NCBI GenBank assembly: GCA_016866785.1
Contig: VGLH01000015.1
Span: 1 to 43,331 of the forward strand
DNA length: 43,331 nt
Direction: 5' to 3'
Source: Candidatus Poribacteria bacterium
Lineage (GTDB): Bacteria > Poribacteria > WGA-4E > GCA-2687025
The translations under genes and the position numbers were made by a program. The notes beneath the pieces were generated by a model. The model saw only the letters and a program-made list of their open reading frames with translations, did no database searches and was not told the origin of the DNA. Positions 33,575-41,561 of this stretch are shown piece after piece (the first letter of the stretch is position 1; every line of letters begins with the position of its first letter).

Positions 33575-34327
33575 ATGAGGACCCGTTCCGCCGCCCAGAA
33601 CGCCCATCGCCACCGGGATTCCTGCGATCAGGTCCCTGTGCACGGAACCAGCCGCTGGGAAGCGATGACGCGCTTCCACGATCGAGAAGGGCGACCGGTC
33701 GTCGGGCTCACCAAGACCATCCGGCAGGAGCTCGCACACCATCTGCCGTTCACGGCGCTGGCTGTGCTGACGACCGTTCTGGTTCTCGGCTTGGTGTCCC
33801 AGGGGCGCACGGAACCGTGGCAGGAATCGCGGTTCGAGTTCCTGCACTACGTCCATCTCTTCGCCAGCGCCATCGCGACGACGGCGGTCTTTTGGCGTTA
33901 CCAGCGCAATGCGCTCCTGGCGGTCGGGACGGGCGCCGCGGGCTCCGTGATCTTCTGCACGCTGAGCGACATCGTGCTCCCGTTCCTCGGCGGGCGCCTG
34001 TTCGGGTTGCCGGTGTCGTTCGGTCTGGAACTGGTCGAATCGCCCCTGCTCGTGCTCGGCATGGCGCTCGGCGGATCGCTGGTCGGGTTCGTTCGGCTGC
34101 GTCACCTTTCGATCTACTCGCATTCCCTCCACGTCTTCGTCTCCTCCTTTGCATCGCTGATGTACCTGCTGACGCACACGTCGATCGCGTGGTTCGGATG
34201 GTCGCATGCGCCGGCACTCGTGGCGGTGCTGGTGGTCGCCGTCTTTGTGCCTTGCTGCATGAGCGATCTCGTGATGCCGGTGGCGTGCACGCATTGCGGG
34301 CTCCGCGACGGGGACCGCTCGCACTAG
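33575..34327 (+). CDS. Integral membrane protein of unknown function
   Basis: The protein has 250 residues from ATG 33575 (GAGG at 5-nt spacing). An alternative in-frame ATG at 33665 would remove 30 Arg/His-rich residues and start just before the conserved-looking RQELAHHLPFTALAVL segment. There are about six hydrophobic segments (LPFTALAVLTTVLVLGLVS, VHLFASAIATTAVFW, LLAVGTGAAGSVIFCTLSD, LVESPLLVLGMALGGSLVGF, HVFVSSFASLMYLL, HAPALVAVLVVAVFVPCC). Paired His and Cys residues on the loops (HHLPF, VPCCMSD, ACTHCGL) hint at metal binding. I do not recognise the family. It ends 27 bp before the kinase-nuclease-helicase gene on the same strand and could be its transcriptional partner. Confidence 0.7.
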   Translation: MRTRSAAQNAHRHRDSCDQVPVHGTSRWEAMTRFHDREGRPVVGLTKTIRQELAHHLPFTALAVLTTVLVLGLVSQGRTEPWQESRFEFLHYVHLFASAIATTAVFWRYQRNALLAVGTGAAGSVIFCTLSDIVLPFLGGRLFGLPVSFGLELVESPLLVLGMALGGSLVGFVRLRHLSIYSHSLHVFVSSFASLMYLLTHTSIAWFGWSHAPALVAVLVVAVFVPCCMSDLVMPVACTHCGLRDGDRSH

Positions 34328-34354: not shown

Positions 34355-37300
34355 GTGGAACACCAGGTCGGAGACCTTCTGGACGGCGGACGGCTGCGCC
34401 TGGAAGCCGCTCTGGGCAAGGGCGGGTTCGGCACGGTGTGGCGCGCGACGGAGCTCTTCGGGCTGGACCGCGAAGCCGTGCCTCTGCGCACCGTCGCCGT
34501 GAAGTGCCTGCCTCCCGTTCGCCACGAAGCGGATCGTTCGCGGATCGTCGAAGAGGCGCGCGCACTCGCCGGATTGGTTCACGAAGCCGTTCTTCGGCTC
34601 TACTATGCGTTCGCCGACGAGAGCGGCGCTTACCTCGTGACCGAACTGGCGACCGAAGGAGACCTGCGCGACTTCTACGACGGCTCGATCCCTTCCGAAG
34701 CCGAACTGCGCGAGATCGTCTTCTCGCTGGCGCGCGGGCTGGATCACCTGCACCGTGGCGGGTTCGTCCACGGCGATCTGAAGCCGGAGAACGTCCTCGT
34801 CACCGAGGCGGAAGAGGATTCGGTCCGGTATCTGCTCGCCGACTTCGGTCTGCGGACGCTGATCGGCGAGAGGCGGTTCCAGGGAACCGTTCCGTACATC
34901 CCTCCCGAGGCGTACCGCGCGAGCTCCCAGCCGCTGACCGACCGAGCAGACATCTACGCGTTCGGCGTGCTCCTGTTGGAGACGGCGACCGGGCGTTCGG
35001 TCCGCAGCCTCCTGACTGAGAACGTCCTGGAATCGCTCAGCGAGACGCAAGCCCCGCCGAAAGCGCTGGAACGCGTCCACAGCGCCATGGACGAGTGGCT
35101 AGAGCGATGCGACTGGCGGTCGCTCCGCCTCCCGCCGTTCCTTCCCGCGCTCCTGCGGATGTGCCTGTCGCCGGAACCGTCCCACCGCCCGACGGCGCAG
35201 GGAATCATCGATCTGTGGAACGCCTTCGAGCGCGGTCGCCGCGGGACACTGATGCCGTACCGATTCGCCCACGCGCCGGGACCGGAGGCGCGCTACCAGA
35301 TGCAGTACGCGCGGCTGCTGGAGGTCGCGGAAACGTGGGACGCCGAGAGGCGGGAGAACGTCGCGGTGGCTTCGTTCGTCGGGGCGACGGAGAGCGCCTT
35401 CCATGTGCGGGTCGGCGAGAAGACGAACCGGTCGATGTTCTCGTCATTGACTTCGCTGCGGTCGCTGGATGCGGTTCCCATGGCGTCCATCTACGGCGTG
35501 CTGGCGCGAGACATCGGGTCGCAGTCGTTCGAGGCGGATTTCCGCAGCTACATGGTCGTGCGTCCGTTCGAGCTGGTGGACGTGACGCACGTGAGCAGCA
35601 GCCATCATTGCTCGCGGGCGTATCTCCACCGGATCGTCTACTCGCAGGGGGTTCTCTCGCTTCCGATGCTCCGTGGAACCGTTCTGCACCAGTTGTTCGG
35701 CGAGCACCTGGCTCACCCGGAGACGTCGTTCGAAGAGCTGTGGGAGCGGCACTGGCGCGAATCCTGTCTGTCGTTCGCCTTCCTCCTGCCGACAAACGCG
35801 GAGTATGACGGGTTCCGAGCCGATGTCGGCAAGACCTTCGAGCGGATCCGCCGCGCCGTCGCGCGAGAAGGGATGCTGTCACGACCGGGACGGGAGCTGG
35901 AATCCTCGCGCTGGTCGTATGAGCTGGGGCTCTCCGGAAGGGTGGACGCGCTTTTCACGTCCGAGTCCGATCGGCTGGCGGCGTACGAGCTGAAGACGGG
36001 TCACGTTCGTCCCGGCGATCTGCTTCAGCTTCAAGCCTACGCAGCCATCCTGAGCGAAGAGCGACGCGGCGCTCAGGGCGAGGTCGGGGCTGACGAGATC
36101 GACGCCCAACTGATCGTCGGCGCGACGGGGAGGTTCCAGCGACCCGACCCCGCCACAGGCTACGCCCACCTGACGAGCATCCGAAACGAACTGCTGCGAC
36201 TCAAGGATGCTCTGATCGCTCCGCGCGCCCCCGGCGAACCCCTGCCGGAGGAGTACCCCTACTTCGGGTATCAGACCGCCAAGTGCCGCCAGTGCCGTCA
36301 GGCAGAGCCGTACCTCCACGGGGAGTGTCGGACGACGACCGCGCGGCACGGCGAGCGCCGCGACCTGGAAGGGGAACCGCTCTCCTCGCTGGAAACCCAG
36401 TATTACCAGCACTGGACGAGGATGATCTTGCGCGAGCAGCGGGCGATGCAGCAGGCGTACTTCGCGCCGCTGCTCGAGACGGCGCTGCGCGAGGAGGGCG
36501 CCGACGCGACGGCGTACGGCATTCGAGCCGAACATCGCATTGAGAACGCCGAGCTCTGCAGCGTGGACGGCGACGTGCTCCGCTTCCGGTTCGAGGCGAG
36601 CGTCGCGGAGTTCTCGGCGGGAAGCGACGTGCTGATCCATCACGGCGACATCCGGCGCGTGAGCGAGATCGTCCGCGGCTCGGTCGTCGAGATGAACCGC
36701 GACGAGATCGTTGTGGAAGGAAACGTCCGGTCGCGCGGCAAGCACCTGGTTCAGCAGATCGGCACGGTCTGGCACATCGACCCGCTTCCTAGCCTGAGAA
36801 GCACCGACGCGCTGCAACGGGCGCTGAACCTGTTCATTCGCTCCAAGAACGGGGCGATGAAGGGGATCGTGCTGGGGGGTTCCATTCCTCGCCGCCAGGG
36901 ACGGCTCTTCGCGGAGCCGACGGGCGAGCCCAAGCCAGTGGCTGCGGGTCATCGCCTGAACGCCCAGCAGACACGCGCGCTGGTGGCAGCGTTCGACGAC
37001 GCGGGATTCCTGTCGATCACGGGACCTCCGGGAACCGGCAAGACAGCGACCATCCACGCCATTGTCGATGCGTTCGTGCGGCAGGGCTGCCGCGTGTTGG
37101 TGGCGGGATTCACGAACAACGCCATCGACAACGTCGTCGAGCGCCTCATCGGAGAGGGCTCGGACACGATGATCCCCTTCCTCCGGCTGGGGAACCCTCC
37201 GGGCGCGTGCGAGCGGATGTTTGAATCGATCCGCAGACACGGGTTCGACCCGCGACGCTGCTTCGCGCACACGCTCGGAGAGGCGTTCACGGATATCGAA

Positions 37301-38305
37301 GCGCTGCGGGAGCACGTCGAATCGGTTCCGGTGTTCGTCGGGACGGCGCACTCGCTGCTGCGCTCGCCGTGGATCGCCGAGGAGACGGACGAGCCCCTGT
37401 TCGACGTCGTGCTGATCGACGAGGCGACGCAGCTCACGGAGCCGTTCGCGGCGGCGCTGCTGACGCTGGGCAGGAAGGGGATTCTAGTCGGGGACGAGAA
37501 GCAGTTGAGCCCGATTGCCGCCGATGCGCCCGATACTGACGCGGAAATCCCGGAGCCGCTGCATGCGTTGGGCGTCGGGGGGCTGGGCACGTCCCTGTTC
37601 GAGCGCCTGAACCGGCTGTTGCGCGAACGCGGGGACGATGACTGTCTCGCGCTGCTGACACAGCAGTACCGCATGCATCCCGACATCGGCGCATGGGCGT
37701 CCAAGCAGTTCTACGGCAACCGCCTGGACGCGTCGTCGACGACCTACGCAGGGCTCCCGGAACTGGGTCGCGCGCAGGATCAGCCGGGATGGGACCAACT
37801 ACGTAGGATCCTGGACCCTCGTTACGCGTTCGTATTCTTGGACGTCGAGTCGGGAGGGGACTCGGTTCCCAATGCGTCAGCGGCAGAGGCTCGCGTAGCC
37901 GCCGTGCTGGCGCGAGGGCTGTCGCAGCTCGGCATCGAGAGCGTCGGCTGTATCACGCCGTATCGGAACCAGTTGGCGCTGCTGCAGCGGGAGCTCGCCG
38001 ACCTGCCGACGTTCGAATGCGGGACGGTCGATGCGTTCCAGGGGAGAGAGAAATCCGTCATCATCCTGTCGACGGCGCGGAGGGATCGGCTGACCGACTT
38101 CCTGACGAACCCGAACCGCCTGAACGTGAGCGTGACTCGCGCAAAAGCGAAGTGCATCTTGCTGGGGAGCGCGCGACTGTTGCGGGGAGACCCCCTGCTG
38201 TGGAGCCTGATCGATCAGGAGAGTTGCCTACGCGTGTCCACGGATGCGGAGTTGCTCGCGCAGGAGCTGCTCGGGGAACGCAGCGGGCTTCGGCGGTCTA
38301 GGTGA
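34355..38305 (+). CDS. Fusion: Hanks-type Ser/Thr kinase + Cas4/Dna2-type Fe-S nuclease + Dna2/Upf1-type SF1 helicase
   Basis: The protein has 1316 residues; GTG start 34355 with GGAGAG upstream. Kinase (about 12-290): GKGGFGTV (21-28), Lys50, HGDLKPEN (139-146), DFG (163-165), PPE (183-185); all residues for activity are present, with HGD in place of HRD. Nuclease (about 410-660): Cys419, His445, Asp531, E545-x-K547, then QLQAYA, and CRQC...C (Cys644, 647, 658), i.e. the Dna2/Cas4 PD-(D/E)XK site with its four Fe-S cysteines. Helicase (about 860-1300): GPPGTGKT (890-897), LIDEATQ (D1022), GDEKQLSP (about 1046), QYRMHP (about 1104), VDAFQGRE (about 1225) and NVSVTRAK (1257). The kinase-plus-Dna2 joining is unusual; defence or DNA end processing under phosphorylation control is inferred. 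Antisense to a convergent HTH gene over 8 bp. Confidence 0.93.
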   Translation: MEHQVGDLLDGGRLRLEAALGKGGFGTVWRATELFGLDREAVPLRTVAVKCLPPVRHEADRSRIVEEARALAGLVHEAVLRLYYAFADESGAYLVTELATEGDLRDFYDGSIPSEAELREIVFSLARGLDHLHRGGFVHGDLKPENVLVTEAEEDSVRYLLADFGLRTLIGERRFQGTVPYIPPEAYRASSQPLTDRADIYAFGVLLLETATGRSVRSLLTENVLESLSETQAPPKALERVHSAMDEWLERCDWRSLRLPPFLPALLRMCLSPEPSHRPTAQGIIDLWNAFERGRRGTLMPYRFAHAPGPEARYQMQYARLLEVAETWDAERRENVAVASFVGATESAFHVRVGEKTNRSMFSSLTSLRSLDAVPMASIYGVLARDIGSQSFEADFRSYMVVRPFELVDVTHVSSSHHCSRAYLHRIVYSQGVLSLPMLRGTVLHQLFGEHLAHPETSFEELWERHWRESCLSFAFLLPTNAEYDGFRADVGKTFERIRRAVAREGMLSRPGRELESSRWSYELGLSGRVDALFTSESDRLAAYELKTGHVRPGDLLQLQAYAAILSEERRGAQGEVGADEIDAQLIVGATGRFQRPDPATGYAHLTSIRNELLRLKDALIAPRAPGEPLPEEYPYFGYQTAKCRQCRQAEPYLHGECRTTTARHGERRDLEGEPLSSLETQYYQHWTRMILREQRAMQQAYFAPLLETALREEGADATAYGIRAEHRIENAELCSVDGDVLRFRFEASVAEFSAGSDVLIHHGDIRRVSEIVRGSVVEMNRDEIVVEGNVRSRGKHLVQQIGTVWHIDPLPSLRSTDALQRALNLFIRSKNGAMKGIVLGGSIPRRQGRLFAEPTGEPKPVAAGHRLNAQQTRALVAAFDDAGFLSITGPPGTGKTATIHAIVDAFVRQGCRVLVAGFTNNAIDNVVERLIGEGSDTMIPFLRLGNPPGACERMFESIRRHGFDPRRCFAHTLGEAFTDIEALREHVESVPVFVGTAHSLLRSPWIAEETDEPLFDVVLIDEATQLTEPFAAALLTLGRKGILVGDEKQLSPIAADAPDTDAEIPEPLHALGVGGLGTSLFERLNRLLRERGDDDCLALLTQQYRMHPDIGAWASKQFYGNRLDASSTTYAGLPELGRAQDQPGWDQLRRILDPRYAFVFLDVESGGDSVPNASAAEARVAAVLARGLSQLGIESVGCITPYRNQLALLQRELADLPTFECGTVDAFQGREKSVIILSTARRDRLTDFLTNPNRLNVSVTRAKAKCILLGSARLLRGDPLLWSLIDQESCLRVSTDAELLAQELLGERSGLRRSR

Positions 38306-38906
38306 GACGCTTGCTCAACAACTGGATGAGCAGTTCGATCTTCGATTCGAGCGTGTTGAGGCGTGTCTCGAACTGGCGAATCATGGCTTCAGACGCGTCA
38401 GAACTTCGGACATGCTCCCGGACGATGGGCGTCGGCTTCGCAGACGCCGCGTCGTAGGAAGCGGTATGGCGCAGGCGGCACAGACCGTTGGTTTCGGAGA
38501 ACTCTGCGAACGCCGCGAGGAACTCGCCGATGCTCTCCACGCTGAAGCTCAGTCCATGGTACCGCTCGAGCTGCCACTGGAGTTCGCTGATCGCGAGCCC
38601 ATCCCGATGCTGAGCGAGAATCGCCCACAGCATCTGGTAGAGGTTCGGCTCGTCTCCTTCCGCGAGGGGCTTTTGGAGAACGGGGTCCTTCCGCACGTCG
38701 GAAGCGAGCTCTTCCTTGACGGATTCGAAGGGAATCATGTAGCGGAATCGCTTGGACTTCCCTTGCCCTGTCGCCATCGGTCTCTGAACCGCGGCGAGGC
38801 TGCCTCGCTTGATGCGCGCGCGGAGGGCTGCCTCTTGCTTGCTCAGGACGCGAGCCACGTCCTTGAGGCTGAGGTATGTAATGCCGTCGATGGTCTCTTC
38901 AGCCAT
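38298..38906 (-). CDS. Helix-turn-helix domain protein convergent with the kinase-nuclease-helicase gene
   Basis: The protein has 202 residues. The N-terminal 65 residues (YLSLKDVARVLSKQEAALRA, RIKRGSLAAVQRP, RFRYMIPFESVKEEL) look like a MerR/excisionase-like winged helix (HTH_17 type). The middle (LYQMLWAILAQHRDGLAISE) is helical, and the C-terminal part (MIRQFETRLNTLESKIELLI) has heptad spacing typical of a coiled coil, suggesting a dimer or trimer. The last 8 bp overlap the end of the large fusion gene. It may regulate that gene or the repeats in the intergenic region to its right. The ATG at 38906 has only a weak ribosome site. The exact family is unknown. Confidence 0.75.
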   Translation of the reverse strand: MAEETIDGITYLSLKDVARVLSKQEAALRARIKRGSLAAVQRPMATGQGKSKRFRYMIPFESVKEELASDVRKDPVLQKPLAEGDEPNLYQMLWAILAQHRDGLAISELQWQLERYHGLSFSVESIGEFLAAFAEFSETNGLCRLRHTASYDAASAKPTPIVREHVRSSDASEAMIRQFETRLNTLESKIELLIQLLSKRLT

Positions 38907-39194: not shown

Positions 39195-41561
39195 ATGTCG
39201 TCGTTGCGGCGCCTGATCAGGGCCTCCATCGGGGTCTCCGCGTTGCTGTGGGCGTTCCTTGGGACGGCGGCTCTGTCGGCATCCGATGACTACCTCGCGG
39301 TGAGCGTCGTCTACTCGGACGGTCGTGTGACGCGCTTCGACCGGATGCCCGTCGCCATCCGGCTCGCCACCTTGCCCGAAGGACTGCGCGACTCCGGATA
39401 TGACGACGTATTCCGCCAGGCGGTTGAGCTCTGGACGAAGGAATCAGATGGGCTCGTGCGATGCGTCTTTGTCGACAACTCCAGCACATCCGTGGATTTG
39501 CCGGTCACATGGGTCACGCGGATACGGGGACGCGCGCAGGAAGCCCATCTCGGCAAGACGACGCTCATCCGCCCCACGGCGGACACGTTCCGCGTCGAGA
39601 TGGAGATCGGCGTCACAGACGCTTCCACGGGCAGGCGTCTCACGCGCGAGAAGATGCTCTCCGTCTGCCTGCATGAGTTGGGACATGCGTTCGGGCTGTG
39701 GGGTCACAGCGGAGCCCCCGAGGATGTCATGTCGCCGTCCACAGATGCGCAAGCGCCCACTCGACGCGATGTCGAGACGCTACGCCGTCTCTACGCACTG
39801 CCGCCGGGCTCTTCGCTTCACGACGCAGCGATCGGCGTGCTGAAAGACCGTTTGGCGCGGGAACCGGCGGATGTCGAGACGCACTTCCTGCTGGGGAACC
39901 TGTTGCTGGATCGCGGCAACCACGACGCGGCGATCGACCAGTTTCTGCAGACACTCGAGCTGGATGCCACTCATCAGGACGCCGCGGAGCGCCTGGTTCG
40001 TGCCTATCTGGATGCCGGCAGAGCCGACGAGGCGATCCAGAGCGTCGAGCAGGCGGGGGTCCAGTCGCCCGAAGCCTACAACAACGCGGCGCGCGTATTC
40101 TACGAGCGCGGCGAGGTCCACGAGGCGATCTCTGCGCTGGAACGGTCGCTGCGGCTGGACCCGACGTTCGAGGTGGCTCGAAGGAACCTGATCCGCCTGT
40201 GCGTTGCCGAATCGGACCGATTGGCGGAGGTCGGCGAGTACGCAGGCGCCGAAGCCCTGCTGCGCCGCGCCGTCGAGCTCGATCCGCGCGACGTCGGCTC
40301 GACGCTCCGGCTGAGTGTTGTCCTGAACCACCTGGGCAAGGACGCCGAGGCGGTGCGCATCTTGGAGGCGCTGCTCGCTCAGCAGCCGGGAAACGCAGAC
40401 GTCCGAGCCGGACTTGGAAGAACCTACAACAACCTGGGGGTCTCGGAGGCGGCTCGCGAGCGATGGGAGCAGGCTGCCGGACACTTCGAGGCAGCCTTGC
40501 GCTACGACCCGGCTCTGGAGACCGCCAAGAGGAACTACGGCGCGGCGATCCTCCAATGGGCGAACGCCGTGGAGGGCTCGGACCCGAATCGCGCGCTGGC
40601 GCTGTTGGAGAAGCACGCGCGGCTGGAGCGTTCAGCGGCGACGGAAGTACGCATCGGCGTGCTGCATTCGCGGCGAGGCGACTACCCAGCCGCCATCGAA
40701 GCGTTCCGGCGCGCCCGACAGATCGACCCAGACGACGCGGTCATTCGGAAGAACCTGCTGGTGACGCATCACCAGTACGGTGTCGAGCTGGATAAAACGG
40801 GAAACGTCACGGCAGCGGTCGATCAGTTCCAGAAGGGGTTGGCTCTCGATGCGGACCACCTCGACCTCTACCGCAGTCTCGGGCAGACCTATGCGCGCGG
40901 CAAACGAACCGACGACGCCGCGCGAGCGTACGGGGAGGTCCTCAAGCGCAATCCGTCGGACGCCTGGGCACAGAGCGCTCTGGTGAACCTGTACCTGACC
41001 GCGGGTAACGAAGCGCTCCAGAAGGGGCAGTTCGCCAAGGCGCTGGAGCAGTTCGAGCTGGTCCCGGACAGTGCGCGTACCGGTGCGGTCTATGGGATGA
41101 TCGGCTATCTGTATCTTGCGACGGAGAAACCCGTTCAGGCGGTCGATACGCTCGGAAAGGCGTTGCTTCTGAACGCCGATGAGCGTTCGACCCAGAGCAA
41201 CTTCGATCTCGCGGTGAAGCGGCTCAACAAGGCGGCGAAGGAGCGACCGTCGCCGGAGATGGAACGCGCCGCCTTCCGCGCGGAGGTCTACGATCTTACG
41301 GCGAAGATCGCGAAGCGTCCGCGCAAGGCGGATGTCTCTCGCTTCGTCGAGATGGTCGCATCGACTCCGAACGATCCGATGACGATCCAAGTCGTTCAGG
41401 ACTGCGCACTCCAGGCATCGCGCAGCGCGACGCCGCGCTACCCGGAGGAGGCGCAGGCGCTCGCTCGGAGCGCGCTCGCCCTCAAGCCGAGCCATGCCGA
41501 GTTGCGTACGTGGGTGAATGGCACCGGATCGACACCAAAGGCGAATCGAACGCCGGAATGA
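39195..41561 (+). CDS. Secreted matrixin-like metalloprotease with TPR repeats
   Basis: The protein has 788 residues; ATG 39195 follows AAAGGA. A signal peptide covers about 1-28 (ending LSA). The metzincin zinc motif HELGHAFGLWGH (His160, Glu161, His164, His171) and a Met-turn DVMSPS about 5 residues later define a matrixin-type protease domain (about 30-205). Residues about 215-700 form around a dozen TPR units (THFLLGNLLLDRGNHDAAID, AYNNAARVFYERGEVHEAIS, LYRSLGQTYARGKRTDDAAR). Such proteases cut extracellular or periplasmic proteins, and the TPR array probably holds partners or substrates. The following gene starts 10 bp downstream, so the two are co-transcribed. The fusion order protease then TPR is uncommon. 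Confidence 0.88.
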   Translation: MSSLRRLIRASIGVSALLWAFLGTAALSASDDYLAVSVVYSDGRVTRFDRMPVAIRLATLPEGLRDSGYDDVFRQAVELWTKESDGLVRCVFVDNSSTSVDLPVTWVTRIRGRAQEAHLGKTTLIRPTADTFRVEMEIGVTDASTGRRLTREKMLSVCLHELGHAFGLWGHSGAPEDVMSPSTDAQAPTRRDVETLRRLYALPPGSSLHDAAIGVLKDRLAREPADVETHFLLGNLLLDRGNHDAAIDQFLQTLELDATHQDAAERLVRAYLDAGRADEAIQSVEQAGVQSPEAYNNAARVFYERGEVHEAISALERSLRLDPTFEVARRNLIRLCVAESDRLAEVGEYAGAEALLRRAVELDPRDVGSTLRLSVVLNHLGKDAEAVRILEALLAQQPGNADVRAGLGRTYNNLGVSEAARERWEQAAGHFEAALRYDPALETAKRNYGAAILQWANAVEGSDPNRALALLEKHARLERSAATEVRIGVLHSRRGDYPAAIEAFRRARQIDPDDAVIRKNLLVTHHQYGVELDKTGNVTAAVDQFQKGLALDADHLDLYRSLGQTYARGKRTDDAARAYGEVLKRNPSDAWAQSALVNLYLTAGNEALQKGQFAKALEQFELVPDSARTGAVYGMIGYLYLATEKPVQAVDTLGKALLLNADERSTQSNFDLAVKRLNKAAKERPSPEMERAAFRAEVYDLTAKIAKRPRKADVSRFVEMVASTPNDPMTIQVVQDCALQASRSATPRYPEEAQALARSALALKPSHAELRTWVNGTGSTPKANRTPE

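Follow-up and report, generated by a model that had tools for sequence, protein, structure and literature searches.

Eukaryotic Dna2, which unwinds and trims DNA ends, is regulated by separate regulators and receives control at its N-terminus. Its published layout runs from an OB domain through a nuclease and a barrel/stalk to the helicase (PMC4716839). Two further described proteins resemble the one reported here: MkoA of the Mokosh type I system, in which a kinase and an SF1 helicase share one chain, and NCBIfam family NF040671 from Myxococcota, curated as 'PLuB system helicase-like protein'. No paper on a kinase-Dna2 fusion or on the name PLuB was found in the open-licence literature; our guess from taxonomy names is that PLuB stands for Persicimonas, Lujinxingia and Bradymonas.

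The window analysed here, a 43,331-nucleotide stretch of Candidatus Poribacteria DNA (contig VGLH01000015.1), holds one uninterrupted open frame of 1316 aa, with its GTG start at 34355 and its stop ending at 38305. That this single chain unites a kinase, an Fe-S PD-(D/E)XK nuclease and an SF1B helicase, as claimed in an earlier note made from the DNA letters, is near certain and is borne out by the Pfam matches. The gene, its parts and its neighbours are:

33575..34327, + strand: membrane protein (27-bp gap upstream of the fusion; synteny in relatives' loci L014 and L015)
34355..38305, + strand: kinase-Dna2 fusion gene, 1316 aa (open frame; Pfam domains; family orthologues)
34382..35230, + strand: Hanks-type Ser/Thr kinase domain, residues 10-292 (PF00069, Pkinase, at residues 17-285, 3.9e-37; invariant in orthologues; dN/dS 0.027)
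35231..35539, + strand: OB-like domain, residues 293-395, at the Dna2 OB position (predicted strands; profile match; Dna2 order, PMC4716839)
35540..36424, + strand: Dna2-type PD-(D/E)XK nuclease (PF08696, Dna2, at residues 397-462, 5.9e-8; profile against DNA2 1.8e-19; Foldseek 5ean 1e-18)
36425..36934, + strand: stalk/beta-barrel part, residues 691-860 (modelled as a long helix followed by strands; Dna2-like order)
36935..38302, + strand: SF1B helicase of the Dna2/Upf1 class, residues 861-1316, with all motifs (AAA_11 at residues 868-949; AAA_12 at 1078-1273, 7.3e-38; DNA2 by phmmer, 2.4e-36)
38298..38906, - strand: convergent HTH-like gene, judged outside the system (homologues unlinked in relatives)
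39195..41561, + strand: TPR/matrixin-like protein (Pfam; syntenic in one other genus)

Each catalytic residue named in the earlier note was found at its position, and all are invariant in aligned orthologues from three other genera that share 47-50% identity with the window protein (K50, H139-G140-D141, D163-F164-G165, C419, E545/K547, C644, C647, C658, K896 and NVSVTRAK). Collinear copies of the fusion lie inside contigs in four independent assemblies, the window's included, and a fifth assembly holds it as two contig-end pieces.

The nuclease had been called 'Cas4/Dna2', of which the Dna2 part stands: a 23-sequence profile and a Foldseek search both place it specifically with Dna2. While the four-sequence nuclease alignment alone barely matched solved structures, a profile of residues 293-862 built from 23 sequences (4 from Poribacteria and 19 Myxococcota relatives) matched mouse DNA2 at 1.8e-19 over profile positions 52-406. 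Likewise, an AlphaFold model from the 4 sequences was useless (pLDDT 41), while that of the same residues from 23 sequences reached a mean pLDDT of 82.8 and a pTM of 0.83. When the latter was compared with the PDB, three Dna2 crystal entries came out on top (1e-18 to 4e-16), and the next match was at 2e-4. As in Dna2, a four-cysteine Fe-S PD-(D/E)XK nuclease with the D/ExK/QxxxY pattern (C419, C644, C647 and C658; H445, D531, E545, K547, Q558 and Y562) is joined to an SF1B helicase of the Dna2/Upf1 class. Across the 23 sequences from Poribacteria and Myxococcota, at about 20% identity, no change is seen in the nuclease catalytic columns or in the aligned Fe-S cysteines (C419, C644 and C658). 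The linker of ~100 residues between kinase and nuclease (293-395) has the predicted order b-b-b-a-b-b, as for an OB fold, and the DNA2 profile match begins within it; it is predicted to be the Dna2 OB domain. The placement of an OB domain before the nuclease and of a barrel/stalk before the helicase is seen in the predicted model only. The profile, the model and the OB-like linker therefore point to a complete Dna2 with an N-terminal kinase.

The kinase carries the Hanks motifs intact, with a G-loop (GKGGFG), K50, the alphaC glutamate E67, HGDLKPEN, DFG (163-165) and PPE; the usual HRD reads HGD here (D141). In a comparison of two congeneric genomes, the kinase had a dN/dS of 0.027, as against 0.066 in the nuclease and 0.073 in the helicase. 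The Poribacteria kinase is thus under strong purifying selection, at least as strongly kept as the rest of the chain, and its motifs suggest that it is catalytically competent. In one relative's copy (L003, positions 1380-1600) the frame of the kinase start does not match that of the remainder, which likely reflects an assembly or sequencing frameshift because relatives are intact at the same place.

The fusion is no orphan, and its conservation is ancient. NF040671 matched its residues 391-1290 at 4e-100, and the first part of the family matched the kinase segment collinearly, if weakly (0.0014); the overall score of 336 bits falls far short of the 999 bits set as the curated cut-off. Judged from these alignments, the family is the same three-part protein, though not labelled so. 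The nuclease-helicase occurs in 25 of 379 Myxococcota genomes searched, and in the class of one of those 25 it is carried by 28 of 57 genomes, 17 of them above the curated cut-off. These chains run from a kinase or kinase-like region to the nuclease and then the helicase. Nuclease and helicase motifs are kept in all 19 chains with a kinase region, while the kinase catalytic Asp is kept in only four, so phosphotransfer would not be essential to every version. Loci L160-L176 hold such kinase-like Dna2 fusions with mostly dead kinases, a make-up that the name 'PLuB system helicase-like protein' hides. In the kinase tree a single fusion origin for Poribacteria and Myxococcota was not rejected (p-AU 0.69); in the helicase tree the two groups of fusions stand apart, and their union was not rejected (p-AU 0.11).

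Within the window's family of uncultured Poribacteria the gene is single-copy in five of the six available genomes, the sixth being 64% complete. Searches of the phylum's remaining 79 genomes gave no full-length match, and the fusion is thus dispensable at the phylum level. A sample of 343 Planctomycetota genomes yielded solely kinase-less helicases, under the family cut-off. Identity of the fusion as compared to that of RpoB was 92.5 vs 97.0 within the genus and 52 vs 70, 48 vs 70 and 47 vs 65 between genera. Its GC3 matches that of neighbouring genes. Vertical descent within the family would fit both the RpoB-tracking identities and the neighbour-like GC3.

The gene for the upstream membrane protein lies beside the fusion in three genomes, which represent two genera, is found elsewhere in a fourth (third genus), and was not found in the fifth fusion carrier, whose genome is 61% complete. 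Across the phylum it was present in four of 85 genomes, all four of which carry the fusion. The protein is family-restricted, gave no Pfam or NCBIfam match and has a conserved C-terminal CCMSDLVMPVACTHC motif. Both it and the convergent HTH gene had been suggested as parts of the system. The membrane protein is possibly an accessory of the fusion in the two genera where it is linked; in the third it is unlinked. The HTH gene was rejected as a partner, as its homologues in relatives are not linked to the fusion, and it is absent between the same neighbours in a relative's locus (L015). The 788-aa protein encoded at 39195-41561 combines many TPRs with a matrixin-like peptidase domain. In relatives, genes for Complex I, sulfite reductase and ABC transporters are among the neighbours of the fusion, and PADLOC returned ABC-ATPase cross-hits from these neighbourhoods and nothing else. 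In two genomes of the family, one of them that of the window, AddA and AddB adjoin each other; a simple replacement of AddAB was rejected for this reason, and any resection role of the fusion would likewise be partly redundant.

The reading that we favour, with modest confidence, is that the fusion is a vertically inherited, kinase-coupled Dna2 with a putative function in chromosome maintenance; it resembles an inherited enzyme of genome maintenance more than a mobile anti-virus gene. Its presumed substrate, kinase target, direction of control and physiological role would be as follows. A complete Dna2 (OB domain, Fe-S nuclease, barrel/stalk and 5'-3' SF1B helicase) with its own Ser/Thr kinase would process chromosomal DNA. 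Helicase and nuclease, sharing one tunnel as in Dna2, would load on single-stranded DNA, either where ends are broken or at stalled forks, and DNA loading would be coupled to the state of the kinase. Autophosphorylation of the kinase, or its phosphorylation of bound partners such as SSB, may gate unwinding and cutting; alternatively, the kinase may report DNA structure. The earlier proposal that the kinase controls the nuclease-helicase is therefore plausible. A bolder version, which we consider unlikely, is a one-protein bacterial DNA-damage checkpoint, in which the Dna2 motor would switch the fused kinase, thereby controlling end processing and signalling DNA structure, and which in most Myxococcota would have decayed to a pseudokinase with a structural or allosteric role only.

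The earlier note had proposed a single-chain defence or DNA-repair factor. The conserved kinase and Dna2-like nuclease-helicase stand, while the defence role does not fare as well, and we regard it as doubtful that the fusion is a single-gene anti-phage factor whose kinase senses infection and frees the nuclease-helicase on invading DNA by a Mokosh-like logic. Kinase-helicase pairs do occur in defence; in PADLOC the helicase of the fusion matched MkoA best and the kinase MAD6/PD-T4-6, and enrichment in defence genes has been described for sponge-associated metagenomes (PMC5099237). A Mokosh type I-like pair, in which a kinase-helicase adjoins a PLD-domain gene, is also carried by the cyanobacterial conjugative plasmid pMIC7113.01 (L107, 7899-12874). 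However, the PADLOC matches to the fusion are domain-level only, and the claimed relationship to Mokosh type I goes no further than the helicase: the best MkoA match spans that part rather than the whole protein, and no gene for the PLD nuclease MkoB, the partner of MkoA, was found among the nearest genes tested on both sides, the fusion having an Fe-S nuclease within the chain instead. In the helicase tree, the two MkoA-like kinase-helicases examined branch apart from both fusion groups. At the family level, neither a defence-island context nor a patchy or mobile distribution was seen: the neighbours are ordinary, no defence genes were found adjoining the fusion, its divergence tracks RpoB, and its presence in the family is near-constant. 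The operon context in Myxococcota is fixed and non-defence. Among 72,556 plasmid and 50,697 phage records, none yielded a copy that spans most of the chain, a scan of viral contigs gave one distant helicase as its sole match, and a viral fold search returned phage PD-(D/E)XK nucleases with weak scores. Filing the fusion under Mokosh or general defence was thus rejected on partner, context and inheritance. The housekeeping Dna2 against which the earlier note had weighed a defence role is seen in part, as no defence genes surround the fusion, but it is family-restricted rather than phylum-wide.

Less probable still is a signalling or RNA-directed enzyme, either an Upf1-like helicase acting on RNA or an envelope/stress-signalling module. 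The helicase is of the Upf1/IGHMBP2 class, a membrane protein lies directly upstream in two Poribacteria genera, and the Myxococcota operon might hint at envelope or stress signalling, the gene being followed at about ten loci by the PLuB PQQ-repeat protein (NF040673) and the myxosortase MrtP (NF040674). The nuclease and OB domain, however, are much closer to Dna2 than to any RNA enzyme, and no homologues of the PQQ-repeat protein or MrtP were found among the genes that flank the Poribacteria copies. Finally, the idea that separate genes were joined by an assembly or sequencing artefact, which the earlier note had named as a refuting outcome and which might be suspected of a genome in 291 contigs, is refuted by the independent collinear copies in other family genomes and in Myxococcota, and its probability is negligible.

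As compared to known systems, the TM0106-family RecB-like nucleases with a helicase, found for example on Rhizobium plasmids, share the helicase region at 26-27% identity, but no kinase was matched and the alignment is limited to fusion residues 741-1275. The likeness to NF040671 extends much further, with kinase-like, OB-like, Dna2 nuclease, barrel/stalk and helicase parts collinear over about 1,250 residues. The two differ in that most NF040671 members lack the kinase catalytic Asp, which is intact in the Poribacteria fusion, and in the Myxococcota operon with NF040673 and NF040674, which is absent beside the Poribacteria gene. An apparently active kinase in Poribacteria and seemingly dead relatives form a natural comparison for control of the nuclease-helicase, one that would address control by phosphorylation versus control by the kinase fold. 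The curated 'PLuB helicase-like' family is a kinase(-like) Dna2, and its annotation should change. With eukaryotic Dna2 (mouse DNA2, PDB 5eaw/5ean) the fusion has in common the OB domain, Fe-S PD-(D/E)XK nuclease, barrel/stalk and SF1B helicase, in the same order and with the same catalytic residues, at about 16% identity across the modelled part. Where eukaryotic Dna2 has an N-terminal helix or extension, however, the fusion has its kinase, which occupies the place of the eukaryotic enzyme's regulatory N-terminus.
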